Shown here: positions 33 through 53,453 of the stretch, piece by piece | How positions within the stretch are numbered: position 1 is the stretch's first letter | Layout of the letters: the number at the start of each line of letters is the position of its first letter | Assembly (NCBI RefSeq): GCF_030816965.1 | Contig: NZ_JAUSYQ010000002.1 | Location: forward strand, 10,344,001 to 10,408,000 | Origin: Streptomyces canus | GTDB lineage: Bacteria > Actinomycetota > Actinomycetes > Streptomycetales > Streptomycetaceae | DNA length: 64,000 nucleotides | Direction of reading: 5' to 3' | Made by a program: the position numbers and the translations under genes | Notes under the pieces: generated by a model | What the model was told of the DNA's origin: nothing | What the model saw: only the letters and a program-made list of their open reading frames with translations | The model's database searches: none

Positions 33-55
33 GAAGCCGTCAAGAATCAACCTGT
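33..55 (+). repeat. ISAzo13 copy 1 left terminal inverted repeat
   Basis: The 23 bases are the exact reverse complement of 2184-2206 and identical to 50850-50872. Confidence 0.93.
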
Positions 56-86
56 TGCTTCGCGATCAGCGGCTCGTTGGCCTGGT

Positions 87-2192
87 ATGGCGATCACGGA
101 CGAGATGCTGTCCCAACTCGACTGCCGTTTCGCGGTGTTGCTGCCCCATCTCAACGAGAGGCAGCGGCGTCTCGCGGTGGCGGCCGAGGCACGACTGCTG
201 GGCCACGGCGGGGTGCGCGCCGCCGCCCGGGCAGCGGCCGTCAGCGAGACCACCGTGCGCCGGGGGATCACGGAACTGGAAGCCGGCAGCGGGCCGCTGC
301 CCGGTGGGCGCATCCGTGCCGACGGCGGAGGCCGTAAACCGGTCGAGGAGGTCGACCCCGGCCTGGTGAACGCGCTGATGGCCCTGGTCGAGCCTGATGA
401 GCGCGGTGATCCGGAATCCCCGCTGCGGTGGACGACGAAGTCGCTGCGTCACCTGGCCGAGGAACTGACCAGGCAGGGGCACCCGGTCTCCGCGCCGACG
501 GTGGGTCGTCTGCTCAAACAGGCCGGTTTCAGCCTGCAGGGCAACGCCAAGACTCTCGAAGGCACCCAACACCCCGACCGCGACGCCCAGTTTCATTACC
601 TCAACGAGCAGGTCAAACGGCACCAGGCGGCAGGCGAGCCGGTGATCAGCGTTGACACCAAGAAGCGTGAGCAGATCGGACGCCTGCCCATGGCTGGACG
701 CGAGTGGCGTCCGAAGGGCGACCCGGTGCGGGTCGAGGACCATCACTTCTTCTTCAGCGGTCCGAACGTCGAGCAGGCGATCCCGTACGGAATCTACGAC
801 ATCGCCCACAACACCGGCTGGGTCAACGTCGGGGTCGACCACGACACCTCTACCTTCGCCGTGGAGTCGATCCGCCGCTGGTGGAAGGCTCGCGGGCACG
901 ATGACCATCCGCACGCCACCCGGCTACTGATCACCGCGGACGCCGGCGGCTCCAACGGCTACCGCTACCGGGTCTGGAAGAGCGAGCTGGCCGCCCTGGC
1001 CGCCGAGACCGGCCTGGCGATCACGGTCTGCCACTTCCCGCCGGGCACTTCGAAGTGGAACAAGATCGAGCACCGGCTGTTCTCCCACATCACTCACAAC
1101 TGGCGTGGTCGCCCTCTGACCAGCCACGATGTCGTCATCGAGACGATTGCCGCCACCCGGACCCGGGCCGGACTGCGTATCGAGGCCCGCCTGGACCCCG
1201 GCGACTACCCCACAGGCATCGCGATCAGCAAGGACCGCTTCGCCGCCCTGCCCCTGGTCAAGCATGAGGTGCACGGCCAGTGGAACTACACCCTGCTGCC
1301 TGAACCCGCCTCGGCGCAGGCCCAGCCCGCTGTCGGTGAGGCGCACGGCGTCGCCGACCGGCGCCACTCACTCCTGGCCCGTCTGGCCGACCCGCGGCTG
1401 ACAGGACTGAGTAGCACACAACTCGCCGACTTGTGCGTCGAGTTGGCCCCACTCCAGGCCGCGCGGGCTCAAGAACGCTACAGCGAACAGCGCGGCGGAC
1501 GCGCCCGTCGGGCTACCGGCAAACTGCGCGGCAGCAAGCCGGTGTTCGACGACGCGGCCCGGGTGATACTCACCCTCCTCTACCAGCGGCAGGTCTGCTC
1601 GATGAAGCTGCTGAGCGACATGCTGGAGGTCACCCCCAACTGCATCGGCCACCTCGTCGCCGAAACCCGGCGCGTCCTGGAAGACCACGGTCACCAGCCC
1701 GGATACGCCCCCACCCGCTTCACCACCGAGGCCGAGCTGCTGGCCTTCCTCGACACGGCAACGACTCCGCCGCGCACCCAGATCATGGAGAGCCTGTCCC
1801 ATCCGCGCCTGACCGGCATGTCCCATGAGGGCCTCGACACACTCGCCCGGCGCCTCGCCCCACGCCAACTCGCTCAGATCGAACGCGCCTCCTACCAGCG
1901 CCGGGGCGCCGACCGCCAGCCGGGCAGCCGCGGCGGCATCTTCCCCCAGAAGATCGGCGACAAAGAACGCGTCATCCTCGCCGTCCTCTACCTGCGCAAG
2001 CTCTGCACCCTGGACGTCCTCGCCGACGCGCTGGGCGACGTGAGCCGGTCCTTGATCGGCAACGTCGTCCGTGAGATCCGACCCCTGCTCATGGAAGCCG
2101 GGCACCTCCCGCCACCGGCCACCACCCGCTACCGCACCGCCGCCGACCTCCTCGCAGCAGCACACAGCGAAGACGACACACCGACAGGTTGA
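87..2192 (+). CDS. ISAzo13-family DDE transposase with duplicated C-terminal module
   Basis: 701 residues. A helix-turn-helix-like region lies near residues 35-65 (GGVRAAARAAAVSETTVRR). The DDE catalytic core follows: D190 in SVDTKKREQ, D285 in TADAGGSNG and E328 in GTSKWNKIEHR, the pattern of the Rhodopirellula/ISAzo13 transposase family. Family proteins usually end near residue 400-420. This one continues with two related modules at about 432-555 and 570-690, each starting with PRLTG and containing ARVILTLLYQ or ERVILAVLY, then a predicted helical DNA-binding-like segment and a TRF/TRY-TEA/TAA-LLA tail. The stop codon lies inside the right terminal repeat. Start: ATG at 87; no strong ribosome site is visible. 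The protein is identical to the one at 50904-53009. Confidence 0.93.
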   Translation: MAITDEMLSQLDCRFAVLLPHLNERQRRLAVAAEARLLGHGGVRAAARAAAVSETTVRRGITELEAGSGPLPGGRIRADGGGRKPVEEVDPGLVNALMALVEPDERGDPESPLRWTTKSLRHLAEELTRQGHPVSAPTVGRLLKQAGFSLQGNAKTLEGTQHPDRDAQFHYLNEQVKRHQAAGEPVISVDTKKREQIGRLPMAGREWRPKGDPVRVEDHHFFFSGPNVEQAIPYGIYDIAHNTGWVNVGVDHDTSTFAVESIRRWWKARGHDDHPHATRLLITADAGGSNGYRYRVWKSELAALAAETGLAITVCHFPPGTSKWNKIEHRLFSHITHNWRGRPLTSHDVVIETIAATRTRAGLRIEARLDPGDYPTGIAISKDRFAALPLVKHEVHGQWNYTLLPEPASAQAQPAVGEAHGVADRRHSLLARLADPRLTGLSSTQLADLCVELAPLQAARAQERYSEQRGGRARRATGKLRGSKPVFDDAARVILTLLYQRQVCSMKLLSDMLEVTPNCIGHLVAETRRVLEDHGHQPGYAPTRFTTEAELLAFLDTATTPPRTQIMESLSHPRLTGMSHEGLDTLARRLAPRQLAQIERASYQRRGADRQPGSRGGIFPQKIGDKERVILAVLYLRKLCTLDVLADALGDVSRSLIGNVVREIRPLLMEAGHLPPPATTRYRTAADLLAAAHSEDDTPTG

Positions 2193-2206
2193 TTCTTGAC
2201 GGCTTC
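2184..2206 (-). repeat. ISAzo13 copy 1 right terminal inverted repeat
   Basis: Exact reverse complement of 33-55. It overlaps the last codons and stop of the transposase gene. Confidence 0.93.
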
Positions 2207-2991
2207 TGTGGACCCAGCAGCGCTGGTGGCGGGCTGCGGGGAAGACCTCGGCGAGGGCCTTCCACAGGCTCATCGCGCCGTCACCGAGGACCAGCTCGGG
2301 GTCGCGCATGCCGCGTCGGCGGCAGTCGCGCAGCAGGTCTGCCCATGACTCGGTGGACTCCCGCAGGCCCTCGGCGAGCGCGATGAGTTCCTTGGTGCCG
2401 TCCAGACGCACCCCGAGCAGGACCAGCACGCACGAGTGGGCCTGCCCGAGCCGGATCTTCGGGTGCACACCGTCGGCCCACACATAGACGAAGTCCCGGT
2501 CCGACAGGTCCCGGTCCTGGAAGGCGGAGTGGTCGTCGGCCCACTGCTTCCTCAGGCGGGTCACCGTCGCCGGCGACAGGCCAGCCATGCCGCCGAGGAA
2601 CTGTTCCAGGGCCGGGACGAAGTCCCCGGACGACAGTCCGTGCAGGTAGAGCAGCGGCAGTCACCTCGAGATCTTCGGCGACTTGCGGCACCACGGCGCA
2701 AGGATCTTCGAGGAGAACTGCTTGCGCTCGCCGGTCGCCTCGTCCACCCGCCGGTCATTCACCCGCGGTGCCCTGACCTCGATTGGTCCAGCCGCAGTGA
2801 CCACGGTCCGGGCCCGGTGGTGGCCGTTACGGACGACGCGGCGCTGACCGCACTCGTCGGTTCCGGCAGCCAACTCGGCTATGTACTGGTTGACTTCCGC
2901 CTCCAGGGCGGCGGCGGGCGCCTTCGCGGACGATCTCGTCGATCAAGGAGCGAGACTGGGTGGAGCCGTCGTCGGTGACTACGCTGAGCAC
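2207..2991 (-). pseudogene. IS256-family (Mutator) transposase, 5' part, frameshifted and interrupted
   Basis: Minus-strand fragments in order: SRSLIDEIVREGARR (N-terminus), AAALEAEVNQYIAELA in another frame, TDECGQRRVVRNGHHRAR, KQFSSKILAPWCRKSPKIS, then MAGLSPATVTRLRKQW through DGVHPKIRLG and LGDGAMSLWKALAEVF to RHQRCWVH. These follow the usual order of an IS256 transposase, including the first two acidic catalytic residues (DGVH and LGDG). There are at least two frameshifts, one after EGARR and one after KSPKIS, so the gene was dead regardless of the ISAzo13 insertion at its C-W-V-H codons. The start is probably GTG at 2991. Confidence 0.88.
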
Positions 2992-3165
2992 GGGTGTGCC
3001 GTCATCGAAAGCAGTGGACAACACCGCCGCAGTGTGGGGACTTGCACCTCGAAGTGCCTTGCCGATCCAGCGTGTTGAAAGCCTAAAGAACTCCCCTCAC
3101 CACAGTTCGCAAGGCACTTCCTCGTCGCCCGAAGAGCCATCCACAACCATCACATCGGTGGGTGC
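2992..3165. other. Short intergenic stretch, probable IS256 end remnant
   Basis: No gene is seen. This should hold the outer end of the decayed IS256 element, but no clear terminal repeat partner is visible because the other end lies outside the window. Confidence 0.4.
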
Positions 3166-3627
3166 TCAGCCGCAGCCCCCCGGCATACGCCCCACTGTGG
3201 ACTGCGGGTCTGCGTCGGGACGAGCGGGGTACTGCGGTACGTCGAGCGCTGCGGTCCAGGAGATGCGGCGCGCCGTGAAGATCTCCATGAGCGGCGGCTT
3301 GACGCTTTCAGGGTCGTCGAGGCTGCCGAGCATCACGAACACCTGGCCCGGGAATCCCGAAAGCTTGTCGGTGAAGACCCGGGCTCCGCAATCAGGGCAG
3401 AAGTTGCGTTCCAGCGTGTTCCCGCTGTCGGCCACATAGGGATAGGAACGCGGCTTTCCGCTCAGGAGCTTGAAGTCGTCCTGGGCGACGCTGAAGTAGG
3501 ACGCCATGACGCCGCCAGACGATCTCTGACAGTCCTTGCAATAGCAGTTCGCGATGAATTCGGGTGCGTTGCTGAACTCGTATGTGAGGGCGCCGCACTC
3601 GCAGCGTCCCGTGAACTTGTTGGACAC
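3166..3627 (-). CDS. GFA-family zinc protein (CENP-V/GFA domain)
   Basis: 153 residues, normal for the family. Zinc-ligand motifs characteristic of GFA/CENP-V proteins are present: GRCECGAL near the N-terminus, CYCKDCQR at about 28-35, and NFCPDCGARV near 80. Family members include a protein once called glutathione-dependent formaldehyde-activating enzyme, but most have no proven reaction, so only a zinc-binding fold is safe. Start is GTG at 3627, behind AAGGAG with 6-7 bases of spacing. It is a single gene. Upstream, at 3706-3745, is an element shared with wrbA (36123-36725) and the duplicated hydrolase gene, which suggests coordinated regulation. Confidence 0.9.
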   Translation of the reverse strand: MSNKFTGRCECGALTYEFSNAPEFIANCYCKDCQRSSGGVMASYFSVAQDDFKLLSGKPRSYPYVADSGNTLERNFCPDCGARVFTDKLSGFPGQVFVMLGSLDDPESVKPPLMEIFTARRISWTAALDVPQYPARPDADPQSTVGRMPGGCG

Positions 3628-3673
3628 GTCTTACTCCTTTGTCTACCGATGCCGCCCTAGACGCAGCTTGGGC

Positions 3674-3753
3674 TGGACCAGACTGCCTCCTTGAGCCGGT
3701 CGGGGCCCCTCAGTAATGGGCAGGAACCCCACGGATCGGGACGTCCTGCCCGG
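3674..3753 (-). promoter_or_regulatory. Conserved upstream element, GFA copy
   Basis: In gene direction the core (3745-3706) contains GATCCGTGGGGTTCCTGCCC followed by ATTACTGAGGGG. The same 40-base core, with one base changed, is at 36868-36907 upstream of wrbA, and similarity extends over about 80 bases (GACCAGACTGC side included). A more diverged version with the same internal spacing lies upstream of both hydrolase copies. The core is 79-118 bp before the GFA start. It may be a promoter, operator or leader; sequence alone cannot decide. Confidence 0.6.
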
Positions 3754-4030
3754 ATCTGTCCGGACCACCGACGAGAGGTGGGGATGGCGGGCAACGCACC
3801 TCGAAGGGTCATACACATACATCACACCGATGGATCAAGACGTGGCTGCGCACATCCCCACACGCCGGGGGTGGGAGCTGAGTCACGGGGGAGAGGGCGC
3901 CGCCTGTGAACTCAGGCAACGAGGGGTTGCTCGCTGTTTGTTCCATTGGCCACTTACACTTCACTGTGCTCTCAACAGAGTCAATGGCGACCACCCGTTA
4001 CGCGAGCACATGATGTGCTGAGGAGTGATC

Positions 4031-5935
4031 GTGGCGCCCGTGAACTCGCCGATGACCGGGCAGACCGGCTGTGGCACCAAACCTCGCAGCCCGCTGCGCG
4101 CCTTCATGCATACCGAGACCGGCAGTGCCGTCGCCCTGCTGGCGGCCACCGCCGCAGCACTGGTGTGGGCCAACATCGCGCCAGGCGCATATGACACGTG
4201 GTGGCACACTCAGGTATCCCTGCGGTTCGGTCAGGCCGGTATCACCCTGGACCTGCGGGACTGGGTGAACAGTGGGCTGATGGCCCTGTTCTTCTTTGTC
4301 GTGGGCCTCGAAGCCCGGCGCGAGTTCGACCTCGGTGAGCTACGCGAACGCCGGCGGCTGGCCCTGCCGTTCATCGCTGGCCTCAGCGGCATGCTCGTCC
4401 CCATCGCTCTCTTCCTCGCCGTCAACGCGGGCCAGACCTCGGTGCACGGCTGGGGCACCGCCATGTCCACCGACACGGCGTTCGCGCTCGGTATCCTCGC
4501 CGTCTTCGGCGACCGGCTGCCCGGCCGCCTCCGCGTCTTCCTGCTCACGGTCGCAGTCGCCGACGATTTCCTCGCCCTGGTGGTCATTGCGGTCGCCTAC
4601 AGCGGGCCCCTCGATCTTCCCGCCCTAGCCGCCGCATTTGCAGTGCTTGCCGCGCTCCTGGCGCTGCGCCTGGCCGGTGTGCGGATCTCGGCCGTCTATG
4701 CGCTGTTGTCCCTGGTGCTGTGGGGAGCACTGCTGCAGTCCGGGGTGGATCCCGTGGTCAGTGGTCTCATCATGGGCTTGTTGACCTACGCGCACCCGGC
4801 CGAGCGACAGGCCTTGGAGAACGTCAGCGGCCTGTTCCGGCGCTTTCGTGAGCAACCGACAGCGGAACTGGAACGCACCCTGCGCCGCGGGCTGTCCTCG
4901 ACGATGTCCCCCAACGAACGACTCCAACGGATGTTCCATCCCTGGACGAGCTTCGTCATCGTTCCGGTCTTCGCGCTGGCCAATGCCGGCATCACCGTCA
5001 GTGCCGACCAACTCACCGACGCCGCCACCTCCCCCCTGACCCTGGGGATCGTGCTCGCATACGTAGCGGGCAAGCCCATCGGTATCTTCGCCACCACCTG
5101 GCTCGCGGTGCGCGTCGGCCGGGGCCGCCTGCGCCCGCCGGTCGGCTGGGGTGCCGTCGCCGCCGGCGGCAGCCTGGCGGGAGTCGGCTTCACCGTGTCG
5201 CTGCTGATCGCCGACCTCGCCTTCACCGGCGTCCAACTCGAAGAGGCGAAAATCGGCATCCTGGCTGCCGTCATCTGCTCGTTCATCCTCACCTGGCTGG
5301 CCACCCGGCTGCTGGCACTGCTTCCTCCGCGGCGGCGGGCCCGTGCACTGCTCGGCGAGGAGCAGACGATCGTCGACCTCGTCGAACCGGTGGATGCCGA
5401 GCGCGACCACATCCGCGGACCCCTCGACGCGCCGGTCACGCTCGTCGAGTACGGCGACTTCGAGTGCCCCTACTGCGGCCTGGCGGAACCGGTGGTGCGC
5501 GAACTGCTCGCCGCTTTCGGCGACGAGGTGCGTTACGTCTGGAGGCATCTGCCCCTGTCGGACGTCCACCCCAACGCCCAGCTGGCGGCCGAGGCGGCCG
5601 AAGCCGCCACACTGCAGGGCGGGTACTGGCAGATGCACGACATGCTGTTGACCCACCAGGGTGCCCTCCAGCTCAAGCACCTGCTGGCCTACGCGGAGCA
5701 GATCGGGCTGGACAGCGATCGGTTCCGCAACGACCTGCGAAATCGGGTGGGCGCCGAGCGGGTTGCCGAAGATTTGGAGTCCGCGGACCTCAGTGGTGTC
5801 TCAGGGACACCGACATTCTTCGTCAACGGCCGTCACCACTACGGCGCCTACGACATCGCCACCCTGTCGGCCGCAGTACGCACCGCCCGGGCACAGGCTG
5901 CGCTGGGCTATCGAAGCGGCTCGCTGTCTCAGTGA
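4031..5935 (+). CDS. nhaA: NhaA-type Na+/H+ antiporter fused to DsbA-like thioredoxin domain
   Basis: 634 residues in two parts. Residues 1 to about 440 are an NhaA antiporter with many membrane helices: [18 protein letters not shown], a [11 protein letters not shown] helix, and the paired Asp residues needed for ion exchange in NhaA ([12 protein letters not shown]178-D179). From about 455 is a DsbA-family domain with redox motif C479-P-Y-C482 in [10 protein letters not shown] and a cis-Pro loop GTPTFFVNG. NhaA exchanges Na+ for H+ at the cytoplasmic membrane. Such fusions are known in actinobacteria, but what the thioredoxin domain does is not established. Start: GTG 4031 is preferred because GAGGAG precedes it by 5-7 bases; GTG 4025 in the same frame lies within that site. 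No operon partner. Confidence 0.92.
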
Positions 5936-6112
5936 CGCCTCAGGGATATGAGCGTGTCCGACAGTCGACACAAACACCAGGCCCCGACAGGGTGCCCCGG
6001 TGCGGCGTGGCAGACACACGTACACCCCTGGCGCCAGAGCACCGGCAACGATGGTTGCGTCCGCCAGGACATGTCGTCGGGGCGCGCTGTTGAGCCAGGT
6101 CTAGGGCACCGT

Positions 6113-6382
6113 CTAGCTCCATGACAGACCCAGGACACTCTCCGTAGCCCATGCCTCATTCGTGGCCCTGTGCCAGATCACCTTCGCTTCGGCGTGGTCC
6201 AGGTCCCGCAATGGCCCCACCATTTTAGGTGCCTTAAGCGGCGCATTCGCGGCAAAGCGTTTCATCAGATCGGCGCGCACGTAGACTGCGAAATTCACAG
6301 ATTGGGCAAGGATACCGGTGCGCACGAACGTGCCATGCACGGAATAGGGCTCGGCCTTACTCGGCCTAGCCGGTTCGTTCAA
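6113..6382 (-). CDS. Possible small protein of unknown function
   Basis: An 89-residue minus-strand frame starting at TTG 6382, just after the stop of the ATPase-fold gene at 6393. The composition looks protein-like (VHGTFVRTGILAQSVNFAVY, DLDHAEAKVIW), but GC bias at third positions is weak, no family is recognised and there is no clear ribosome site. It could be a decayed or horizontally acquired fragment, or chance. The flanking bases 5936-6112 hold nothing I can identify. Confidence 0.25.
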   Translation of the reverse strand: MNEPARPSKAEPYSVHGTFVRTGILAQSVNFAVYVRADLMKRFAANAPLKAPKMVGPLRDLDHAEAKVIWHRATNEAWATESVLGLSWS

Positions 6383-6392
6383 TCGTGATCTG

Positions 6393-6854
6393 TCACCTGG
6401 GCGAGGCGTTTCGGAAAACCGCGGTCACGGCCTTTCCGCCATCCGGGACGGGTTGGGCGCGCCAGGAATCGGACAGGGCATCGACAAGGCGCATACCGCG
6501 GCCCGTCTCGGCCAATGGATTCGCTTCGGCCACACGTGGCCAATTCGACGTTCCACCCTTGTCCTGAACCTCCAGTTCAGTGACGTCATCGCCATGGTGG
6601 AGCACCAGATTCCCGACGCCGGCTGTGTGTGACGCCGCGTTCGCCACTAGCTCACTGACCACGAGGAGGGCGTCCGGCAACCGTGTACCTAGCCATTCCG
6701 AGCACCCGCTCCGCACTGCTTCCCGAGCCTTTTGCTCGGGACGCTCAGAGTCAGCGAGATTAATAACCTGGCACACACGTGCTGAGGACTCGTTGCACCC
6801 CTTCAGTGCAGGTGAGCAAACGATTTCCCGATCCGGACTGAGTGTTCTGTTCAC
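6393..6854 (-). CDS. ATP-binding protein, anti-sigma-factor kinase fold (RsbW/SpoIIAB-like)
   Basis: 153 residues. The GHKL/HATPase motifs are in order: N-box ELVANAASHT, G1 box VQDKGG and G2 box GRGMRLVDALSD. Streptomyces encodes dozens of these small proteins. Some are anti-sigma factors or partners of SpoIIE/STAS proteins; most are untested. Start: GTG at 6854, preceded by GAAAGAG, which gives the usual length for the family. The frame remains open further upstream, but those residues are not family-like. No sigma factor or STAS partner is seen nearby. Confidence 0.8.
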   Translation of the reverse strand: MNRTLSPDREIVCSPALKGCNESSARVCQVINLADSERPEQKAREAVRSGCSEWLGTRLPDALLVVSELVANAASHTAGVGNLVLHHGDDVTELEVQDKGGTSNWPRVAEANPLAETGRGMRLVDALSDSWRAQPVPDGGKAVTAVFRNASPR

Positions 6855-7870
6855 GGGACTCTTTCGTCGGAGTGTCGGCGGCTGGTGCTGCCTGCGCGCC
6901 CGCGACAGCCCGTCGCATGCGTCGCCAAGGAGGCGCCATGACCTTCCCATTCCCGGCCGCCATTGCCACACAAGGTCACTGGCCAGAAGAACCAATACAA
7001 CCAGTGCGCTATTCCAGCCGAGTTGCGCTACCAGGGGATCTGACAGCACCAGCGTCCAAAGCCGCTGGACGACAGCCCTCCCGGCCCATCAGAAACAGCA
7101 CCGCAACCGCGATGCGGTACACCAGCAGTGACAAGTGTCCTTGCACCTACTGGTCCAGCAGAACCATGCGGACTCCACTGCAGTCCGTGGAGGTACCAGT
7201 GGGTTCATCATCCGCCAACGTCTGAAGACCAACCGGCACGGACACAGCCCGCAGCAAGGCGAAAGACATGTCGGACTCGTCCCCGAAACCGCCTTCCCCA
7301 GCATCCAAATACACCGTGCTCACCGGGACGCCGTCCCGGCGCGCTGTATCGGCGTACTGGAGGGGGAGCATCTCGACGGTCGTCCTGGGCGACACACCGC
7401 CGCTGATCTCACGGTTCGCCACCGGTGAGCGGAGCGCGCGGCGGGAGGAGTGACCGCGAAGCCGTGGGCCAAGCCTCGCGGCAGCGGGGCAAGTCCACGG
7501 CACCGACACCGCGCACCTGGCTGCCCACGGAGTATGGGACCGCTGATGCCGTCAGACAGGGAAGTCACATATTTCCTCGATTCCGAACAGCAGGAAACGA
7601 GCACCCATCGTGGCGCTGCGCTGCCCGAGAATCGAGTCCGTACGGCGATATCCGGAATCCGCGCTGACACGGGGCCGCCAACGCTCTCGCGAGGTGTGGA
7701 GAGTGAATGCCCATCGACCGATAGGGGTGACGAGCAAGGCGTGAGGGAACGCCACCAGGCTGTTGGCCAAGATATGTATCGATGTAAGTGGGCGGCGGGA
7801 ACCTGACGAGCCTGCGAAGGCGGGCGGGGCTACCAGGGCTCTGACGGATTGGGGCGGACTCTTCGGCGGG
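6855..7870. other. About 1 kb without a recognisable gene
   Basis: Only short frames in both directions. A 120-residue minus-strand frame at 7147-7509 (containing GVPVSTVYLDAG) has no recognised family and no convincing ribosome site. I regard the stretch as decayed sequence. Confidence 0.4.
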
Positions 7871-8125
7871 TCACCGCGTGCCGTCACGCCTGACGACGGT
7901 ATTGGCCAACGCTTCGCCTCGTGCGTAACGGTGCAGCTGCTGTACCAGAAAGCTCCGCGATGATTCCTCAAAAAGGATACGCACCTCCGCGGGGTTGCCG
8001 GGAAGCATGTCGTCCTGACCGTCCCAGTAGCCCTAGGAGAACTGTTCTGGCAGCCCAAGCCCATCGAGTTCTTTCGGCTCGTAGGGGAGCCAGACCACCG
8101 CGTCGGCGGTCAAAGGCGTCGTCAT
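7871..8125 (-). pseudogene. Decayed D-2-hydroxyacid dehydrogenase-like gene
   Basis: Minus-strand frame from ATG 8125: MTTPLTADAVVWLPYEP, then LPEQFS, an in-frame TAG, then GYWDGQDDMLPGNPAEVRIL joined directly to FLVQQLHRYARGEALANTVV. The first half resembles the N-terminus and the last part the C-terminus of actinobacterial D-isomer 2-hydroxyacid dehydrogenases (LRRYxxGExLxNVV tail). The NAD-binding centre is missing. So the gene has a nonsense codon and a large internal deletion. It is divergent from the HxlR remnant, a common regulator-target arrangement. Family assignment is from recall of conserved end motifs only. Confidence 0.5.
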
Positions 8126-40033: not shown

Positions 40034-40065
40034 ACGCTCTATATGCCCGACAGTATGGGGGGAAA

Positions 40066-45516: not shown

Positions 45517-45618
45517 GGATCTTTTAATGCAGCGACTGCGCGCGCCGCCTGTCGAGAATACCCGGCGCCCGCAGTCAGCGGACCAGGGAGATCGAGGCGC
45601 GCCTCCAGTAGTGCTTGG

Positions 45619-45905
45619 TCATGTTGGTGTGAGGTTCGGCATGTCGCGGTGGCAGGTGGGGCGGGCGCCGGTCCAAATCACGAGGAGTAGCTGCCGCTCG
45701 TGAACGACTCGGTGGAGGCTCAGGCCAGCGCCGTCTCTTTTGGGGATTGGCTCAGTTGCTGCAGGGTGCAGAAGGTATGGGCGATTGAGACGAGGGTGAC
45801 GTGGTGGTGACAGCCTGCCAGGTTGGCCTTCGAAGTGGGCCATGTCCAGGGTCTGTTTCATCTCACGGTAGTCGTTCCCCATGCGCCAGAGAAGCTTCGC
45901 TGGCG
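45619..45905 (-). pseudogene. IS701-type transposase C-terminal remnant
   Basis: The minus strand reads AKLLWRMGNDYREMKQTLD, MAHFEGQ, then after frame changes HAATEPIP, LSLHRVVHERQLLLVIWTG and RPTCHRDMPN. This is the usual C-terminus of IS701 transposases (W-x-E-x-DYRE-K signature, then a C-T-CHRDMP tail). The Glu of the signature is replaced by Gly-Asn, and there are several frameshifts. Confidence 0.7.
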
Positions 45906-45991
45906 GGCCGCGCAGAAGACTTGCTGACCGGGATAGGCCGGGGTGCACGGCCGTACCACCCCGGGTTGCGCGGTGGTGCAGCCAGGTCCGC

Positions 45992-46145
45992 GCGAGTTGC
46001 AGCGAGACGTCAGCGGCGTCGTCCCACAGGCGGTCTGCGACTGCTGAACTTACAGGTGCGCCGCAACGCCGCTGGCTTCGCCCACGTCGCAGAGGCACGG
46101 TCACGGCCTCCTGGTTGTCTTCGCAGCAGGGGCCGGTCCTGCCTG
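45992..46145 (-). pseudogene. Fragment of an SDR gene (C-terminus)
   Basis: The minus strand reads EDNQEAVTV, then (frameshift) VGEASGVAAHL, then VADRLWDDAADVS, matching the last 50 codons of the intact SDR at 29057-30019 (EDNQEAVLV, KGEASGVAAHAV, VADRLWDYATDA). It lies between two IS701 remnants, so it was probably brought in or cut by one of them. Confidence 0.7.
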
Positions 46146-47300
46146 CAAGGCAGGGCCACGAGCGGTCTTGGTGTCGTTCTGCTGGGCAGAGGTCGGTGGC
46201 AGGTGGTGCAGATGCCGGTCCCAGCAGTTCAGCAGGTCTTGGAGGGTGTCGAGGATCTGGTGGAGGGTGAGTCCGGTGTGTCGGCTTTTGGGACCAGCCG
46301 CTGCTCGGTGAGGAAGGCGTGGGCAGCGGTGACCAGGGGGGCGTGGTGGTGCCAGTCCGGCCAGGAGCCTCGAAGCGGTCCAGGCCCAGGCCGTGCTTGA
46401 GTTCTCGGTAGTCGTGCTCGATGCGCCAGCGGATCTTCGCCAGGCGGACCAGGTCGGCGACCGGAGTGCCATCAGGCAGGTCGGACAGCCAGAAGCGGGT
46501 CGGCCCGTCCTCACCCTCGGGCCCTCGGCCGGCAGTCGCGCCTGGGGCAGGACTCCGTCCCACCGGCCGTGCTCGGCCACCGCGGCCTGCTGGGCCAGCC
46601 GACGCGGCCGCACTCCAGCCGGCCGGACCCGCACCGCGAGGAAGCGGGAGGTCATCAGGCCGCGAGAGCCTTCCCGCCAGGTCACCTCAGGAAGGCTCCC
46701 TGTCCAGCGGCCGCGGCGAGTTCCGCCACCGTCACCGGTGGCTGCCGGTAGCGGGAAACCGGCGGGCGTCCGGTGCCGGAGAACGCCGGGGCGGCGGGGT
46801 GCGCGTCATGCGGCTGGACGGTCAGATCGCCACGAATGCCGACCACATACGCGATGTCCCGCTCGGCCAGGGCGGCACGGAAGTCGGCGTTCTGGCCGTA
46901 GCCGGCGTCGGCCACCACGACCGGCGGCACCAGTTGCCAGGTGGCCAGGTCATCCAGGGCGTCCAGTGCCAGCCGCCACTTCTCCCGGTGCCCGACGTCT
47001 TCCGGGACTCCGGTCCGCCGGCGACGGACGGTGTCCCTGGCCCACTCCTTGGGCAGGAACAGCCGCCAGTTCAGCGGGCAGGAGGCCGTGTCGGAAACCG
47101 CGTGCACGCTGACCGCAACCTGGCAGTTGGCCTGCTTGCCCAGCGCACCGCAGTACTGGTGAGCGACGCCGACCGGGCCAGTTCGCCGAACTGGAGAAGG
47201 AGTTGGCGCTCGGGCCTGCCGAGCACGGCTGGGAAGATCAGCGGTGGACCCTGGCACCCCGCCGGCGGCTGGGCTTCGAGGCCGCCAGCACGGTGGGAGC
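46146..47300 (-). pseudogene. IS701-family transposase, frameshifted
   Basis: From the upstream side, the minus strand reads VGVAHQYCGALGKQANCQ, AVSVHAVSDTASCPLNWRLF, LPKEWARDT, PPVVVADAGYGQNADFR and YVVGIRGDLT (second catalytic Asp in VADAGYG). After a frameshift near 46685 it continues with RFWLSDLPDGTPVADLVRLA and KIRWRIEHDYRELKHGLGLD (catalytic Glu). The N-terminal third is missing, and a further shift follows the E signature. Not functional. Confidence 0.85.
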
Positions 47301-47519
47301 ACATCCTGAGGGCTGCATAACATCGCAAATCTGCGATGTTCCACGCTAGATCTGTGCACGGCTGCTGCATGCAATTCCCGCGCCTGCGCTGCTCACCACC
47401 CGTCCTACTGCAGTTTCCCCTCCTGGGGAACGATGTACGCACTCCTCACACGGGGGCATGCAGGCGCAGCTCGTCCGCCGTTTGGGTCGGGGCGTGACGA
47501 ACAGGCTGGTTCGGTGTGG
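47301..47519. other. Intergenic, no gene seen
   Basis: Remnant sequence between the IS701 debris and the sortase gene end. Confidence 0.3.
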
Positions 47520-48191
47520 TCACGTCACCGCGGTCAGCGTCGCGTAGACCACGACATTGCCCTGGTAACCAATTCCTTCCGCGTATTCACCCCCACAGGT
47601 GATCACGCGTAGTTCGGGCCGGTGGGATCTGCCGTAGACCTTCTCGTCCGGAAACGCCTCCTTGTCGTAGAGCTCTACGGCGTCGACCGCGAAGACTGCT
47701 GTGCGCCGGTCTGCCCGGGTGATCTCGATAGTGTCGCCCTTGGCCAGTGCCCCGAGCCGGTAGAAAACCCCGGGGCCTTCTTGCGTGTCGACATGTCCCG
47801 TCGTGATGGCTGTCCCCACTGAGCCGGGAGTCGTGCCGTCGCCGTACCACCCGGCAAAGGCCGGCTTATCTGCCGATGGTGGACGCAGTGCCCCTGTCCC
47901 GTCGAGGGTCAATTCCGTCATTGGGGCATTCACGCCGATGGCGGGGATCCGCAGCCGGACAGGCTCAGACGGGGGCAGCGCCGACACGGAGGAGTAGTGG
48001 GCCGAGGCGGTGTTGCTGGGACCGGACCGTAGGGAGGGGGAGTAGGACTGCGCGGGCGAAGGCTGCGGAGGCTGTCCGCCCCGGAGCGCCGTTATCACCA
48101 GCATCAAGCCCGCCAGCATGGTGTAGGCGAGAAATTTGATGGAGGGGGTGAACGGGGGAGAAGGATCGACGGGTTCGTCGCCGGGTGCCAT
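47520..48191 (-). CDS. Class F sortase
   Basis: 223 residues. An N-terminal membrane anchor (FLAYTMLAGLMLVITAL, about 17-33) is followed by a Pro/Ser-rich stalk and a sortase barrel: RLRIPAIGVNAPMTEL, the catalytic His in ITTGHVDTQ, GDTIEITRADRRTAVF, and the catalytic Cys in LRVITCGGEY with the later Arg/basic region shortened. Class F sortases attach or process surface proteins. Start ATG 48191 follows GGAGG by 10 bases. It is 103 bp downstream of the gene for a secreted membrane-tailed protein on the same strand. Confidence 0.9.
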   Translation of the reverse strand: MAPGDEPVDPSPPFTPSIKFLAYTMLAGLMLVITALRGGQPPQPSPAQSYSPSLRSGPSNTASAHYSSVSALPPSEPVRLRIPAIGVNAPMTELTLDGTGALRPPSADKPAFAGWYGDGTTPGSVGTAITTGHVDTQEGPGVFYRLGALAKGDTIEITRADRRTAVFAVDAVELYDKEAFPDEKVYGRSHRPELRVITCGGEYAEGIGYQGNVVVYATLTAVT

Positions 48192-48294
48192 CGCTCTGGC
48201 GCCTCCGCTTCGCGGCCGAAATGAGTGGAGACGGGGTGCGACTCGAGCCCCCGAACCGACACGGGCCCGGGGGCTGAGCCGATAGAGGGGAGCG

Positions 48295-48795
48295 TCAGGT
48301 GCGGGCACCGGCCGGGCGGCGGCGCACCTTGATCACTCCTCCGGCGGCGGCTCCGGCGATCAGCAGCGCCCCTAGGGCAAGCTGTGTGCCCTTGTCGTTG
48401 CCCGCCCCGAAACCAGCATTGACCGCTCCGCTGGGGTTGCCGGTGCCGACGAGGTACGTGCCTGTGACTTTGACGCGGGGCGGGCACTTCAGGGTGACGG
48501 TGTAAGCACCGGGCTCGGTTCCACTCGGCACCTGGAATTCGCCGGTCAGTACGCCTTTGCGGTCGTCTGGGAAGAGGTGAAACTTCCCTCCTGCCTCAGC
48601 CTCGCCCTTCCCATAGGTTTCCGAGCCACAGGCTGTGGTGCTGACGCTGACGGTAGAGCCTGGGGCGGCGTGTCTCGTGCTGATGTGGATACCTGAATCT
48701 CCAATGGGGCCGCTCCCGGCTGCTGCGGCTGGGCTCGACAGAACGACGGCACCGAGAACCAGACCGATGCCGGCGCCTGCACACTTGATATGCAT
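48295..48795 (-). CDS. Secreted protein with C-terminal membrane tail, probable sortase-linked substrate
   Basis: 166 residues. Signal peptide MHIKCAGAGIGLVLGAVVLSS with cleavage after AAAA. The mature Ig-like beta domain contains APGSTVSVSTTACGSETYG and GAYTVTLKCPPR with two Cys. It ends with a hydrophobic helix (LALGALLIAGAAAGGVI) and a basic tail KVRRRPAGART. No LPxTG/LAxTG motif is visible, so anchoring may be by membrane insertion. Start ATG 48795 follows GGAGG by 6 bases. Located before the class F sortase. Confidence 0.85.
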   Translation of the reverse strand: MHIKCAGAGIGLVLGAVVLSSPAAAAGSGPIGDSGIHISTRHAAPGSTVSVSTTACGSETYGKGEAEAGGKFHLFPDDRKGVLTGEFQVPSGTEPGAYTVTLKCPPRVKVTGTYLVGTGNPSGAVNAGFGAGNDKGTQLALGALLIAGAAAGGVIKVRRRPAGART

Positions 48796-49144
48796 GAAGT
48801 TCCTCCGGGGAAGCAGTGGCCGGCCGGAATGCGCGGCACGTGGTTGTGTTCCGCTCATGAGAACATCGACAGACCGTCAGGGCTGCAACACGACATACGG
48901 ACGGATGGGTTACCCGGCCCCACCCAGCGACCGCACTCCTTTGCTCATTTACGCAGGTGAGCGACCCCGAGGGCGAGATTGAAAAATTCACCGCACAGGT
49001 GACGAAGGATCAGCGCCCGAGTTCTTGGGCCTTCCCCCGTGAAGGTGGGCACGCGGTTATTGATCACGCGGCGAGTGTGAGTTACTGAGCCTCTTTCATC
49101 TTGTGCTGGAGGGTGAAATGGGCTGGTCAGCTGGTGCGGTGACC
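48796..49144. other. Intergenic, no gene seen
   Basis: Promoter region of the secreted protein. No supported frame. Confidence 0.35.
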
Positions 49145-49497
49145 AGACAGGGCCCCTCGTCGTTGGCGTGTGATTCCACTCAGCACACCGGCGACCGAAG
49201 GGGCCCTGTTGGTTCCGTATCGAGCCATGCTCGACGTCCCGCACGAGCTGGTTGAGCATGTTTCCTGGCTGCTGTACGAGCACCGCCGGGCCCGCAACAC
49301 CCGCTGGCGTAAGCTCGGTTGCTTCAAGCAGGCGCTGCTCGCCCTTGTCCATCTGCGCAAGAATGAGACGTTCTCGCAGCTCGGGGCCGGATTCGGGATA
49401 TCCCAGGCCACTGCCTGGCGGTACGTCGACGAAGCCCTGGAGGTGCTGGCCTCCTGGGCGCCCGGCCTCCATGAAGCCCTTACCGGCCTCGGCCGGG
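49145..49497 (+). mobile_element. IS5-like element, 5' remnant with truncated transposase
   Basis: It starts with CAGACAGGGCCCCTCGTCG and carries an internal inverted partner GAAGGGGCCCTG before the gene. The transposase fragment begins near 49170-49228: MLDVPHELVEHVSWLLYEHR, CFKQALLALVHLRKNETFSQ, LGAGFGISQATAWRYVDEAL, EVLASWAPGLH. This is the N-terminal helix-turn-helix of IS5-type (HTH_Tnp_4) transposases. It ends abruptly at about 49497, without the DDE domain. Confidence 0.75.
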
Positions 49498-49773
49498 GGT
49501 CAGCAGGGTGCGGGCCGGGCGGCCGAGCTGCCGGGCGGTGCTGTCGAGGAGATCGCGGCCTGCGGACTCGGAGAGTTGCTCGATGTGGTGACCTGGGTCG
49601 CGTTCCGGGTGGCCGCGGCCGAGGAGGCCGGCGAAGGCGCCGTGTGCAGTCTCGGCGAGCGTGTCGTCGTACACGTACAGCTGCACGATCTCCTCGCCTG
49701 CGCCCGCGCGGGTGAGCGTGGCGTCCACGCGGGCGGGCCAGGTGCCCTCGGTGATCCAGACGACGACGCTCAT
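49498..49773 (-). pseudogene. Universal-stress-protein-like gene, 3' truncated
   Basis: From ATG 49773, MSVVVWITEGTWPARVDATL, QLYVYDDTLAETAHGAF, LLGRGHPERDP and LLDSTARQLGRP. This resembles the USP-fold proteins found downstream of SLC13/ArsB-type permeases in Streptomyces. The frame runs straight into the IS5-like fragment and so lacks its end. Confidence 0.5.
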
Positions 49774-49799
49774 GGGCGGCTCCGGGGTTGTGACTTCGG

Positions 49800-49985
49800 C
49801 AGGTGCCGATGGTGTGCGGCATCCCCCACAACGCCACAGTGGACGCAAGGAGCGTGGTCGGCACGGTCACCAGGCCGAGCCGGGTGAAGTGGCCGAGATC
49901 GGCCTGGGTGTCGTGCTGGTGCAGGATGCGGCGCCACAGGAGGGTGGCGAGCGAGCCAGGGGTGGCTTTCTCCGGCCGGTCCTTG
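49800..49985 (-). pseudogene. SLC13/ArsB-type permease, C-terminal fragment
   Basis: The minus strand reads GSLATLLWRRILHQHDTQ, DLGHFTRLGLVTVPTTLLAS and TVALWGM, matching the last helix region of ArsB/SLC13-like transporters, a few bases before the USP-like gene. Only the tail remains, fused in frame to a DUF6262 fragment. Confidence 0.45.
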
Positions 49986-49989
49986 ATCG

Positions 49990-50221
49990 TCTGGCCCGCG
50001 GCCGACTCGGCCGCGTCCTCTACGAGCCGTCGCGCTTCGCCCTTCTGGTAGAGGAACGTGCGTGAGACGTCCGCCCCGCGGGCGACCGCGGCGAAGGCCA
50101 CCCGGGATCGTTCGCGGCGCAGCTGCCCGAGGACGTCGCGGACCCGGTCGAGCATGACGGCGGCGGCTTGCCGACGGGTCGCGACCGCGGCGGCGGTGCG
50201 TGGCTCGGGCTGCGTGGTCAC
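49990..50221 (-). pseudogene. DUF6262 protein, N-terminal fragment (transposon partner)
   Basis: From GTG 50221, AAAVMLDRVRDVLGQLRRER, RVAFAAVARGADVSRTFLYQ and EDAAESAAGQTIKDRPEK. DUF6262 proteins accompany tyrosine-type integrases in three-gene actinobacterial transposons (Tn554-like TnpC position). The second half is missing where it joins the permease tail. Confidence 0.65.
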
Positions 50222-50820
50222 GCAACCTCCCAAGGTTCAGCGCGTCCAGCTCGGTGTCGTCGGCGTCCTTGAGCTTCGCAAGGTCGGAGGCTCGGAAGGC
50301 GGTGCTCCACACGCGCTCGAAGTAGTCCTGGGGCCGTCGCAGGTCCAAGGAGAGCGCTTCTTCGAGCGGGCCCATGCCGGCCAGCGCCCGCTCCAGGCCG
50401 GCGATGGCGCGGGCGGTCGGCTCGAAGACGCTGTGGAGGTAGTCGGCCGTGGCGTCGTCGGGAGCCCGTTCGGCGAGCGAGCTCCACTGCTGCTGCTTGC
50501 GCCGCCAGTAGACGAGGCCGTCGCCCGAGAGCACGACCTTGTCGCAGTTCTCGCAGTCCAGGTTCCAGGGGCAGGCCCCGCCGTCGGCGACGGGCCGGAA
50601 AGTGCAGAAGCCGGACAGCAGCTCACCCGGCGGCCTCGTTGTAGTTGCCCACCTTCGTCTGGTCGTACCAGAGCACCGCCACGCTCCCGTAGCGGCCCGT
50701 GCAGTCCAGCCGGAGCCTGATCACTTCGGTGCAGCGGCGTCCGGTGAAGACCAGGAGCCTCCCAGATGTCGCGGTAGCCGCGGTCGTGCGGATCGAACTC
50801 CTCGCTGAGGTATTTCCGCG
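50222..50820 (-). pseudogene. Tyrosine-recombinase-like transposon integrase, 3' remnant
   Basis: The minus strand reads RKYLSEEFDPHDRGYRDIWE, LLVFTGRRCTEVIRLRLD (with a frameshift), LWYDQTKVGNYNEA, a deletion, then LDCENCDKVVLSGDGLVYWR, RKQQQWSSLAERAPDDATADY and DLRRPQDYFERVW up to the DUF6262 start. This is the C-terminal half of the integrase usually paired with DUF6262. The TGRRCTEV region carries the first catalytic Arg of tyrosine recombinases. Internal deletion and frameshift make it inactive. Confidence 0.65.
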
Positions 50821-50849
50821 GGCCAGGCACCAGAGGTGCTGGGTTCACA
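50801..50849 (+). pseudogene. IS256-family transposase, upstream stub cut by ISAzo13 copy 2
   Basis: The plus strand reads LAEVFPRARHQRCWVH, in frame with [16 protein letters not shown] at 53024 once the element and one ACA are removed. The 5' part of the gene is absent, replaced by the integrase remnant; the junction lies in 50801-50820. Confidence 0.75.
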
Positions 50850-50872
50850 GAAGCCGTCAAGAATCAACCTGT
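50850..50872 (+). repeat. ISAzo13 copy 2 left terminal inverted repeat
   Basis: Identical to 33-55; exact reverse complement of 53001-53023. Confidence 0.93.
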
Positions 50873-50903
50873 TGCTTCGCGATCAGCGGCTCGTTGGCCT
50901 GGT

Positions 50904-53009
50904 ATGGCGATCACGGACGAGATGCTGTCCCAACTCGACTGCCGTTTCGCGGTGTTGCTGCCCCATCTCAACGAGAGGCAGCGGCGTCTCGCGGTGGCGG
51001 CCGAGGCACGACTGCTGGGCCACGGCGGGGTGCGCGCCGCCGCCCGGGCAGCGGCCGTCAGCGAGACCACCGTGCGCCGGGGGATCACGGAACTGGAAGC
51101 CGGCAGCGGGCCGCTGCCCGGTGGGCGCATCCGTGCCGACGGCGGAGGCCGTAAACCGGTCGAGGAGGTCGACCCCGGCCTGGTGAACGCGCTGATGGCC
51201 CTGGTCGAGCCTGATGAGCGCGGTGATCCGGAATCCCCGCTGCGGTGGACGACGAAGTCGCTGCGTCACCTGGCCGAGGAACTGACCAGGCAGGGGCACC
51301 CGGTCTCCGCGCCGACGGTGGGTCGTCTGCTCAAACAGGCCGGTTTCAGCCTGCAGGGCAACGCCAAGACTCTCGAAGGCACCCAACACCCCGACCGCGA
51401 CGCCCAGTTTCATTACCTCAACGAGCAGGTCAAACGGCACCAGGCGGCAGGCGAGCCGGTGATCAGCGTTGACACCAAGAAGCGTGAGCAGATCGGACGC
51501 CTGCCCATGGCTGGACGCGAGTGGCGTCCGAAGGGCGACCCGGTGCGGGTCGAGGACCATCACTTCTTCTTCAGCGGTCCGAACGTCGAGCAGGCGATCC
51601 CGTACGGAATCTACGACATCGCCCACAACACCGGCTGGGTCAACGTCGGGGTCGACCACGACACCTCTACCTTCGCCGTGGAGTCGATCCGCCGCTGGTG
51701 GAAGGCTCGCGGGCACGATGACCATCCGCACGCCACCCGGCTACTGATCACCGCGGACGCCGGCGGCTCCAACGGCTACCGCTACCGGGTCTGGAAGAGC
51801 GAGCTGGCCGCCCTGGCCGCCGAGACCGGCCTGGCGATCACGGTCTGCCACTTCCCGCCGGGCACTTCGAAGTGGAACAAGATCGAGCACCGGCTGTTCT
51901 CCCACATCACTCACAACTGGCGTGGTCGCCCTCTGACCAGCCACGATGTCGTCATCGAGACGATTGCCGCCACCCGGACCCGGGCCGGACTGCGTATCGA
52001 GGCCCGCCTGGACCCCGGCGACTACCCCACAGGCATCGCGATCAGCAAGGACCGCTTCGCCGCCCTGCCCCTGGTCAAGCATGAGGTGCACGGCCAGTGG
52101 AACTACACCCTGCTGCCTGAACCCGCCTCGGCGCAGGCCCAGCCCGCTGTCGGTGAGGCGCACGGCGTCGCCGACCGGCGCCACTCACTCCTGGCCCGTC
52201 TGGCCGACCCGCGGCTGACAGGACTGAGTAGCACACAACTCGCCGACTTGTGCGTCGAGTTGGCCCCACTCCAGGCCGCGCGGGCTCAAGAACGCTACAG
52301 CGAACAGCGCGGCGGACGCGCCCGTCGGGCTACCGGCAAACTGCGCGGCAGCAAGCCGGTGTTCGACGACGCGGCCCGGGTGATACTCACCCTCCTCTAC
52401 CAGCGGCAGGTCTGCTCGATGAAGCTGCTGAGCGACATGCTGGAGGTCACCCCCAACTGCATCGGCCACCTCGTCGCCGAAACCCGGCGCGTCCTGGAAG
52501 ACCACGGTCACCAGCCCGGATACGCCCCCACCCGCTTCACCACCGAGGCCGAGCTGCTGGCCTTCCTCGACACGGCAACGACTCCGCCGCGCACCCAGAT
52601 CATGGAGAGCCTGTCCCATCCGCGCCTGACCGGCATGTCCCATGAGGGCCTCGACACACTCGCCCGGCGCCTCGCCCCACGCCAACTCGCTCAGATCGAA
52701 CGCGCCTCCTACCAGCGCCGGGGCGCCGACCGCCAGCCGGGCAGCCGCGGCGGCATCTTCCCCCAGAAGATCGGCGACAAAGAACGCGTCATCCTCGCCG
52801 TCCTCTACCTGCGCAAGCTCTGCACCCTGGACGTCCTCGCCGACGCGCTGGGCGACGTGAGCCGGTCCTTGATCGGCAACGTCGTCCGTGAGATCCGACC
52901 CCTGCTCATGGAAGCCGGGCACCTCCCGCCACCGGCCACCACCCGCTACCGCACCGCCGCCGACCTCCTCGCAGCAGCACACAGCGAAGACGACACACCG
53001 ACAGGTTGA
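50904..53009 (+). CDS. ISAzo13-family DDE transposase (copy 2)
   Basis: 701 residues, identical to the product of 87-2192, including D190, D285 and E328 and the two C-terminal modules. Since the target gene runs in the same direction, transcription of the dead IS256 gene could reach it, but only about 50 bp of that gene remain upstream. Confidence 0.93.
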   Translation: MAITDEMLSQLDCRFAVLLPHLNERQRRLAVAAEARLLGHGGVRAAARAAAVSETTVRRGITELEAGSGPLPGGRIRADGGGRKPVEEVDPGLVNALMALVEPDERGDPESPLRWTTKSLRHLAEELTRQGHPVSAPTVGRLLKQAGFSLQGNAKTLEGTQHPDRDAQFHYLNEQVKRHQAAGEPVISVDTKKREQIGRLPMAGREWRPKGDPVRVEDHHFFFSGPNVEQAIPYGIYDIAHNTGWVNVGVDHDTSTFAVESIRRWWKARGHDDHPHATRLLITADAGGSNGYRYRVWKSELAALAAETGLAITVCHFPPGTSKWNKIEHRLFSHITHNWRGRPLTSHDVVIETIAATRTRAGLRIEARLDPGDYPTGIAISKDRFAALPLVKHEVHGQWNYTLLPEPASAQAQPAVGEAHGVADRRHSLLARLADPRLTGLSSTQLADLCVELAPLQAARAQERYSEQRGGRARRATGKLRGSKPVFDDAARVILTLLYQRQVCSMKLLSDMLEVTPNCIGHLVAETRRVLEDHGHQPGYAPTRFTTEAELLAFLDTATTPPRTQIMESLSHPRLTGMSHEGLDTLARRLAPRQLAQIERASYQRRGADRQPGSRGGIFPQKIGDKERVILAVLYLRKLCTLDVLADALGDVSRSLIGNVVREIRPLLMEAGHLPPPATTRYRTAADLLAAAHSEDDTPTG

Positions 53010-53023
53010 TTCTTGACGGCTTC
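53001..53023 (-). repeat. ISAzo13 copy 2 right terminal inverted repeat
   Basis: Exact reverse complement of 50850-50872. Confidence 0.93.
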
Positions 53024-53453
53024 ACAAGGTTCGTAATGTCATGAACGCGCTACCGAAGTCGGCTCAGCCCGGCGCGAAGAAGGCCCTGCAGAAGATCTGC
53101 AACGCCGAGGACCGCGACCGCGCCGAGAAGGCGATCAAGGACTTCGAGCGTGCCTACGGAGCGAAGTGGCTGAAAGCGATCAAGAAGCTCGCCGACGAGG
53201 CCGACGAGCTCCTCGCGTTCTGCGACTTCCCGCCGAGTACTGGGACACCTGTGCACGACAAATCCCATCGAGTCCACTTTCAGCACCGTGAAGCTGAGGA
53301 CCAAGGCCCCCCCGCGGGGCCGGCAGCCCGGCCGCGGCCCTGGCGATTGTGTTCAAGCTCGTCGAGTCCGCCCAGTCCCGCTGGCGCGCTATCACCGCAC
53401 CCCACCTCGTCGCCCTCGTCCGCAACGGCGCCCACTTGAACCACAACTCTTGA
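53024..53453 (+). pseudogene. IS256-family transposase, 3' part, frameshifted
   Basis: The plus strand reads [40 protein letters not shown] and [13 protein letters not shown], then after frame changes [31 protein letters not shown] and [13 protein letters not shown], ending at TGA 53451. This is the normal C-terminus of IS256 transposases with the catalytic Glu of NPIES. Frameshifts around 53235-53340 show decay independent of the ISAzo13 insertion. Confidence 0.88.

Follow-up and report, generated by a model that had tools for sequence, protein, structure and literature searches.

Can an insertion sequence (IS) be aimed at a single codon in the transposase gene of an unrelated family? This question is raised by a stretch of 64,000 nucleotides from Streptomyces canus (GCF_030816965.1, NZ_JAUSYQ010000002.1 positions 10,344,001-10,408,000; G000:C2:10344001-10408000 in the notation used here), referred to below as the window, in which two copies of an ISAzo13-family element each split an IS256-type transposase gene. 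An original prediction, made from the letters of the window, had placed both insertions at the same codon and had read them as true target selection, with the transposase gene of another family as the target. Comparison of these copies with a third one in the same genome and with relatives from other genomes argues strongly, as far as sequences can, for a site-specific ISAzo13 clade that uses one conserved stretch in IS256 (Mutator-type) genes as its target instead of TTA/TAA, and this reading is held with high confidence.

Copies in the Streptomyces canus genome

The two copies in the window align over 2,174 bp with 0 mismatches, and a third copy, located ~1.8 Mb away (G000:C2:8557095-8559268), is identical over all 2,174 bp. 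A search of the 10.66-Mb genome with the perfect 22-bp terminal inverted repeats (GAAGCCGTCAAGAATCAACCTG), allowing ≤2 mismatches, identified six ends, corresponding to three complete copies, and no copies beyond these. Translation of the flanks, together with the 3-bp target-site duplications (TSDs), confirmed that copies 1 and 2 occupy the same codon of IS256 genes, the flanks (^, insertion point) reading ...ARHQRCWVH^KARNV in the minus-strand gene at copy 1 and ...ARHQRCWVH^KVRNV in the plus-strand gene at copy 2. Both sites, read along the coding strand of the target, are ...TGC TGG GTY CAC A|AG G (RCWVH^K) with ACA duplicated, in agreement with the predicted split between His and Lys of CWVHK. 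The predicted orientations were likewise recovered, copy 1 running antiparallel and copy 2 parallel to the gene that it interrupts, as was the predicted difference in decay: the copy-1 flanks minus one TSD form a single continuous IS256 domain of 430 bits (its 3' half runs leftwards from position 32, beyond the window edge), whereas copy 2 is left with a decayed remnant of 103 bits across the junction.

Copy 3 interrupts a divergent IS256 gene, which belongs to another motif group, and does so at the homologous codon (...QRCRTH^YARNL), where the site reads CCGAACCCACTACG and the TSD is ACT on the coding strand (ACT/AGT). The sequence GGGTYCACAAGG, which had been proposed as the shared motif, is too narrow to accommodate this site; what the sites share is CAG-N3-TGC-N7-[TSD]. 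All three copies in this genome were thus found at the same IS256 codon, after the His of a C/D-x2-H motif (CWVH, CWVH and CRTH, respectively), and pieces of all three interrupted genes scored above the Pfam cut-off for the Mutator-type domain PF00872. In the report by Guerillot et al. (PMC3942029), this C/D(2)H motif is described as conserved in all Mutator-type homologues retrieved, as located 11-19 aa downstream of the second catalytic Asp and as having no known function. The genome holds 13 Pfam matches to IS256, grouped by hand into about seven loci, and since this gives a random insertion a probability of the order of 1e-6 of falling at one given IS256 codon boundary, three insertions at one such boundary are not due to chance. 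The three copies are moreover recent, because they are identical and retain intact TSDs.

Membership of the ISAzo13 family was evident from the NF033519 score of the transposase (574.9 bits against a cut-off of 200, residues 19-405), from the terminal inverted repeats around a single transposase gene and from the 3-bp duplication at all three copies. The TTA/TAA target of most shorter members, here treated as a property of the shorter members sampled and not as a definition of the family, was absent from these copies, which carry ACA/ACT instead. The transposase gene takes up all but 54 + 14 bp of the element. The coordinates of all features are collected below. The assembly consists of two contigs, the window lying ~100 kb short of the end of contig C2 (10.5 Mb), near which IS256 fragments are also found (C2:10501359-10501841).

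Table of features in the window (strand "." for duplications; TSD, target-site duplication; HTH, helix-turn-helix)
Feature	Position	Strand	Remarks
ISAzo13-family element, copy 1	33..2206	+	2,174 bp
ISAzo13-family element, copy 2	50850..53023	+	2,174 bp, identical to copy 1
Transposase gene of copy 1	87..2192	+	701 aa; Pfam PF07592 residues 97-405; NCBIfam NF033519
Transposase gene of copy 2	50904..53009	+	701 aa
C-terminal repeat 1	1362..1766	+	About residues 426-560; HTH-like by homology
C-terminal repeat 2	1773..2189	+	About residues 563-701; weak HTH_Tnp_4 match
TSD TGT, left of copy 1	30..32	.	Flank reading
TSD TGT, right of copy 1	2207..2209	.	Flank reading; ACA on target coding strand
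TSD ACA, left of copy 2	50847..50849	.	Flank reading
TSD ACA, right of copy 2	53024..53026	.	Flank reading
Target core CAG-N3-TGC, copy 1	2217..2225	-	7 bases from TSD
Target core CAG-N3-TGC, copy 2	50831..50839	+	7 bases from TSD
5' half of IS256-family transposase gene split by copy 1	2207..2915	-	One in-frame stop
Remnant of IS256 gene upstream of copy 2	50801..50849 (start approximate)	+	Ends ...RARHQRCWVH
Decayed rest of copy-2 target IS256 gene, downstream	53024..53444 (end approximate)	+	

Targets of related elements

Relatives were gathered solely through similarity to the transposase, without regard to their flanks, from 392 genomes of the genus, 394 genomes of the class, a GTDB-based contig collection (best 80 of 561 loci), plasmids (19 of 121 records used) and 293 genomes of the order, the last searched with the C-terminal part of the protein and contributing 20 stretches. 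They fall into size classes of ~410, ~560 and ~700 aa. For the long (~700 aa) form, 84 loci with a copy and at least one end were reduced to 65 by flank identity, to 64 by removal of one 560-aa type and to 63 by merging of one further duplicate. L027 and L154 were removed as not being of the long type, L222, L223 and L225 were merged with L076 on account of a shared flank, and L028 (frameshifted), L061 and L065 (both cut by contig ends, with the long form only partly visible) were added by hand; L149, which lies between size classes and whose left flank also ends in the IS256 site, was counted nowhere. Target labels were assigned by hand, and IS256 junctions were called by a local hidden Markov model (HMM) built from 27 IS256 proteins. 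The sample is shaped by similarity to a single transposase, and some insertions may share ancestry past what flank identity reveals.

In total, 54 of the 63 non-redundant long-form insertions were located at the IS256 codon boundary after the His, 53 of them by the HMM (positions 274-275, with few deviations) and one (L192) by eye over about seven codons without an HMM match. Four IS256 motif groups were hit, the residue after the insertion being Lys in 12 cases, Tyr in 17, Phe in six and Leu in 18, with one recombinant. Orientation, scored for 53 insertions, was parallel in 27 and antiparallel in 24, with two assigned to neither. Among the 44 two-ended IS256 insertions, 36 displayed a TSD of 3 bp and two a TSD of 4 bp, and none was found in six; the long-form TSDs are mostly ACN/ATT. 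The named hosts, from across the actinobacteria, include Streptomyces, Nonomuraea, Actinomadura, Micromonospora, Pseudonocardia, Planotetraspora, Sphaerisporangium, Actinacidiphila, Blastococcus, Rhodococcus and Nocardia.

A second draw from 297 genomes of another order yielded 27 loci, to which three further stretches were added; of these 30, 12 were not of the long type and 18 were long with two ends, five of the latter being already in the first set. When the same rules and HMM were applied to the 13 new loci, 12 showed IS256 at the junction, the exception being L281, although L283 and L303 possibly represent one event (3,588 bp shared). No new long-type locus was obtained from a search of 35 genomes of another family. 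Identical elements were observed in different IS256 genes both in the S. canus genome and in G1075 (L300 and L302). The check suggested alongside the original prediction, namely to collect other copies and read their flanks, has thus placed the majority at the same IS256 codon boundary, in support of true target selection.

At L022, L187, L224 and L275, both flanks correspond to the same half of IS256 genes, a pattern that recombination or inversion between oppositely oriented copies would produce. In genome G1247, the same IS256::ISAzo13 composite occurs twice (L283 and L303), once with a matching 8-bp duplication CTCCACCC (by eye) and once without. Hitch-hiking of a nested copy on a mobile IS256 was considered, for this case and for the G590 composites described below, and not adopted: a site-specific element entering identical IS256 copies one after another would leave the same arrangement, and the matching duplication is seen at just one of the G1247 composites.

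Shorter relatives served as a control. Of a further 120 loci, 58 showed identifiable ends and a 3-bp duplication, these 58 rows including duplicates and some probably misplaced ends, and none of the 58 was at the IS256 codon; one shorter form (L174) lies near the 5' end of an IS256 gene, away from the codon site. The duplication was TTA or TAA in 45 of the 58 (31 of 41 with frames >480 aa and 14 of 17 with shorter ones). A 560-aa group, comprising L086, L089 and L186 from the set of 58 together with L124, is inserted in DDE_5 (IS701-like) genes around QYSGTAG^R, which indicates that specificity for conserved transposase codons evolved, or was redirected, on more than one occasion. Other 560-aa forms (L038, L039, L045/L070 and L064) have recurring flanks like GAGATC(C/G)TGTTACGAGCTCTTA, which may represent a palindromic repeat or one end of a different element. 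By correlation, IS256 targeting was shown to track one transposase architecture and not ISAzo13 as a whole, in that relatives with none or one of the C-terminal repeats described below were not found at the IS256 site. The predicted homing of ISAzo13 into IS256 thus holds for the ~700-aa transposase type, across four IS256 motif groups, and does not extend to the whole family.

Nine of the 63 long-form insertions were found outside IS256: two in ABC transporter genes, three at IS6-type sequences, one each in an IS5 and an IS110 gene, one beside a CPBP gene and one (L182, with one insecure end) in sequence given no target label. L024 and L028 are inserted just past the ABC transporter signature in the same codon phase (GRQWQRLGIA^R and GGQWQKIGLA^R), with ABC_tran scores of 20 bits for the scanned half of L024, below the cut-off of 25, and 90 bits for L028. 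L196, L215 and L076 lie within or adjoining IS6-type transposase sequence, a label based on Pfam and NCBIfam for L215 and on inspection by eye for L196 (a 65-aa piece that matched no model) and L076 (unscanned). L197 is in an IS5-type gene, and L058 in an IS110-type gene that scored above the Pfam and below the NCBIfam cut-off. L214, labelled ISRop2 by PLSDB, lies early in an open frame, ~100 bp before the PLSDB-annotated start of a CPBP-family protease; a Pfam scan of its flanking piece gave no match.

Target core and its possible recognition

Most occupied sites share CAG-N3-TGC-N7-[TSD], located upstream of the duplication. Scored out of six bases on the better side of each insertion, 28 of the 54 IS256 sites had 6/6, 12 had 5/6 and 14 had ≤4, compared with 6/6 in 0.08%, 5/6 in 1.6% and 4/6 in 9.4% of random window positions. 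Two sites outside IS256 carry the full core: L214 (CAGTCTTGC, 7 bases, then ATT) and L281 of the second draw (CAGCGCTGC, 7 bases, then GAA, by eye). L214 shares 98-99% protein identity with L216 and L217, both of which are in IS256, and L281 shares 95% DNA identity over 2,154 bp with L183, also in IS256. Because these near-twin elements hit non-IS256 sites with the same six bases and spacing, the element probably reads DNA and does not require a whole IS256 gene. A pattern derived from the three occupied sites of S. canus (≤2 mismatches) had two uninterrupted matches in that genome, both IS256 genes or fragments, and the reversed control pattern had seven matches.

In the transposase, an N-terminal region is followed by a DDE core that ends near residue 405, by a linker and by two ~130-aa repeats with 43% identity to one another; the 560-aa form aligns with one such repeat. 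Repeat 2 gave a match to HTH_Tnp_4 with an E-value of 0.0022 (18 bits, below the Pfam cut-off of 27). The repeats resemble the HTH region at the N terminus of IS5-type (DDE_Tnp_4) transposases, with 37% identity over ~130 aa to the N-terminal portion of a protein of 326 aa in which both HTH_Tnp_4 and DDE_Tnp_4 domains are present; this suggests that a DNA-binding domain has been captured from another transposase. In the mechanism proposed here, the tandem helix-turn-helix (HTH)-like repeats would bind the CAG-N3-TGC core and thereby place the DDE catalytic domain ~7 bp away, so that it would cut at a fixed distance. Such a site would be worth keeping, as it combines a conserved amino-acid code with a multi-copy mobile gene and a low cost of breakage to the host; the argument in the original prediction that IS256 is a dead-end-safe, abundant and mobile target is, in this respect, plausible.

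The same IS256 stretch is also entered by an unrelated element. In genome G590, all eight copies (L255-L261 and L264) of an IS110-family element (406 aa, NCBIfam NF033542) interrupt IS256 genes at VQT^C, a position about three codons 5' of the C-x2-H site, in a single orientation and in at least four IS256 sequences. Two IS256::IS110 composites, with IS256 ends present and differing outer flanks, occur three times each in this genome, having either moved as units or been produced by separate insertions into IS256 copies of the same sequence. Relatives of this element at E ≤ 1e-60 were sought in 121 genomes of that family and were found only in G590 itself.

A broader reading, to which we give about an even chance, is that targeting resides in a swappable protein-encoded module: HTH repeats, probably from another family, would have been added to a low-specificity ISAzo13 core, and sister lineages would have been re-aimed by divergence or exchange of the repeats, with the IS256 C-x2-H DNA, ABC transporter signature and IS6, IS5 and IS701-like transposases as their targets. 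The DNA encoding C-x2-H would then be a general landing pad, reached independently by an IS110 element, and a niche for hyperparasites. The best single natural comparison for repeats as putative target readers is that of L210 and L215, whose N-terminal parts are 82% identical and whose C-terminal parts are 51% identical, with IS256 and IS6, respectively, as targets (no TSD was found for L215). Conversely, target recognition may lie with an N-terminal HTH, the DDE core or a bound host protein, the C-terminal repeats serving in end binding or multimerisation, and this we regard as unlikely, though by no means negligible. It is favoured by the difference in terminal repeats between the short and long forms (often GGGC... 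and GRAGCC..., respectively), since the extra protein repeats could bind the ends, and it is opposed both by the L210/L215 pair and by the observation that, across 28 sequences, the DDE core has drifted little (mean majority fraction 0.84) and the repeats diverge (0.61-0.62) while targets differ.

Several observations bear against site-specific targeting through the repeats. Target class fits the N-terminal tree (seven changes) and the C-terminal tree (six changes) of 39 labelled proteins almost equally, and L021 and L195 share a target even though their C-terminal parts are only 53% identical (N-terminal parts, 80%), both of which also lend support to recognition outside the repeats; the evidence for a role of the repeats is accordingly correlative. 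To these are added the nine insertions outside IS256 and the 14 IS256 sites scoring ≤4, some of which represent the wrong side only, or a decayed or recombined gene. The core motif was itself derived from occupied sites, so that it is tested by the off-targets and the second draw only. Because the non-IS256 sites other than L214 score only 2-4 of 6, either specificity has drifted or some ends are misplaced, and for L058, L076 and L215 no target duplication was found.

Explanations that dispense with target choice by the protein fare considerably worse than recognition outside the repeats. IS256 genes are dispensable and present in multiple copies, and near-random insertion with persistence only in such genes could in principle enrich for them; survivorship of this kind is nevertheless very improbable, as it cannot account for the use of a single codon boundary by 54 of 63 insertions, and by 12 of 13 in the second draw, when many other dispensable sequences exist, nor for three recent, identical copies with intact TSDs in one genome being all at the site. 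Equally improbable is that one ancestral IS256::ISAzo13 composite was inherited and copied, mimicking repeated targeting. Composites do recur, one at two places in G1247 (99.86% identical over 3,588 bp) and the identical IS256::IS110 composites in G590, but the two orientations are about equally frequent, four IS256 motif groups were hit, and identical elements with intact TSDs occupy different IS256 genes in S. canus and in G1075. Only marginally better placed, and still very doubtful, is RNA-guided target choice as in IS110/IS1111, which the precision of insertion brings to mind; however, because no more than 54 + 14 bp are non-coding, a guide RNA could hardly be accommodated outside the gene, and the long non-coding region of such elements is absent. 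In addition, orientation is free, unlike that of the IS110 element in G590, and the transposase is of the ISAzo13 DDE type. A site-specific ISAzo13 clade continues to be the preferred reading.

Relation to known elements and significance

The long form shares with the ISAzo13 family (NF033519, PF07592; some relatives are labelled ISRop2 by PLSDB) the catalytic domain, the terminal inverted repeats and the 3-bp TSD, the last of which is given for the family in PMC10045372, and it differs by its two extra C-terminal repeats and by TSDs of ACN/ATT, not TTA/TAA, at IS256 sites. The accessible portions of PMC9208149 and PMC10045372 yielded no report on ISAzo13 target choice, and the name ISRop2 was absent from the full-text literature searched. 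No description of ISAzo13 insertion into IS256 was found among the listed titles and abstract openings of the literature searched.

The closest published precedent that we found for targeting without accessory element proteins is ISAjo2 of the IS1202 family, which, according to PMC10132070, is found near dif/pdif sites in one orientation with a 5-bp TSD, its authors suggesting contact with XerC. The two systems are alike in that a single DDE transposase chooses a specific target, and differ in that the element described here enters IS256 in both orientations with a 3-bp TSD. RNA-guided target choice by a DEDD transposase with a seekRNA or bridge RNA is described for IS110/IS1111 (PMC11187229; PMC11208160 also concerns this group); there, too, the target is specific and sometimes lies in mobile DNA (Tn21-family ends and attC sites, judging from titles in the reference list of PMC11187229), although both site and orientation are set. 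The group II intron RmInt1 homes into ISRm2011-2, reading its target mainly by base pairing (PMC8914252). It resembles the present element as a mobile element homing into an abundant IS, and differs from it as a retrohoming intron with base-pairing recognition. Inteins and homing endonucleases tend to occupy conserved coding motifs as well, but inteins are removed by splicing and the host protein stays functional, whereas here the target gene is split. What appears to be new here, from these sequences, is a targeted IS aimed at a conserved codon of other transposases.

Most autonomous bacterial transposing elements are described, in PMC11187229, as having little or no target selectivity, in contrast to which a whole ISAzo13 clade is aimed mainly at one codon boundary of an unrelated transposase gene and mostly breaks other parasites rather than the host's own genes. 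The finding raises the question of what gives a DDE transposase such high specificity when neither a guide RNA nor an accessory protein gene is evident, and whether exchange of appended HTH repeats can re-aim insertion, for which the natural relatives with other targets provide a comparison set. It further raises the question of whether parasites of mobile elements limit the spread of IS256, and implies that split IS256 genes may be misread as random decay.

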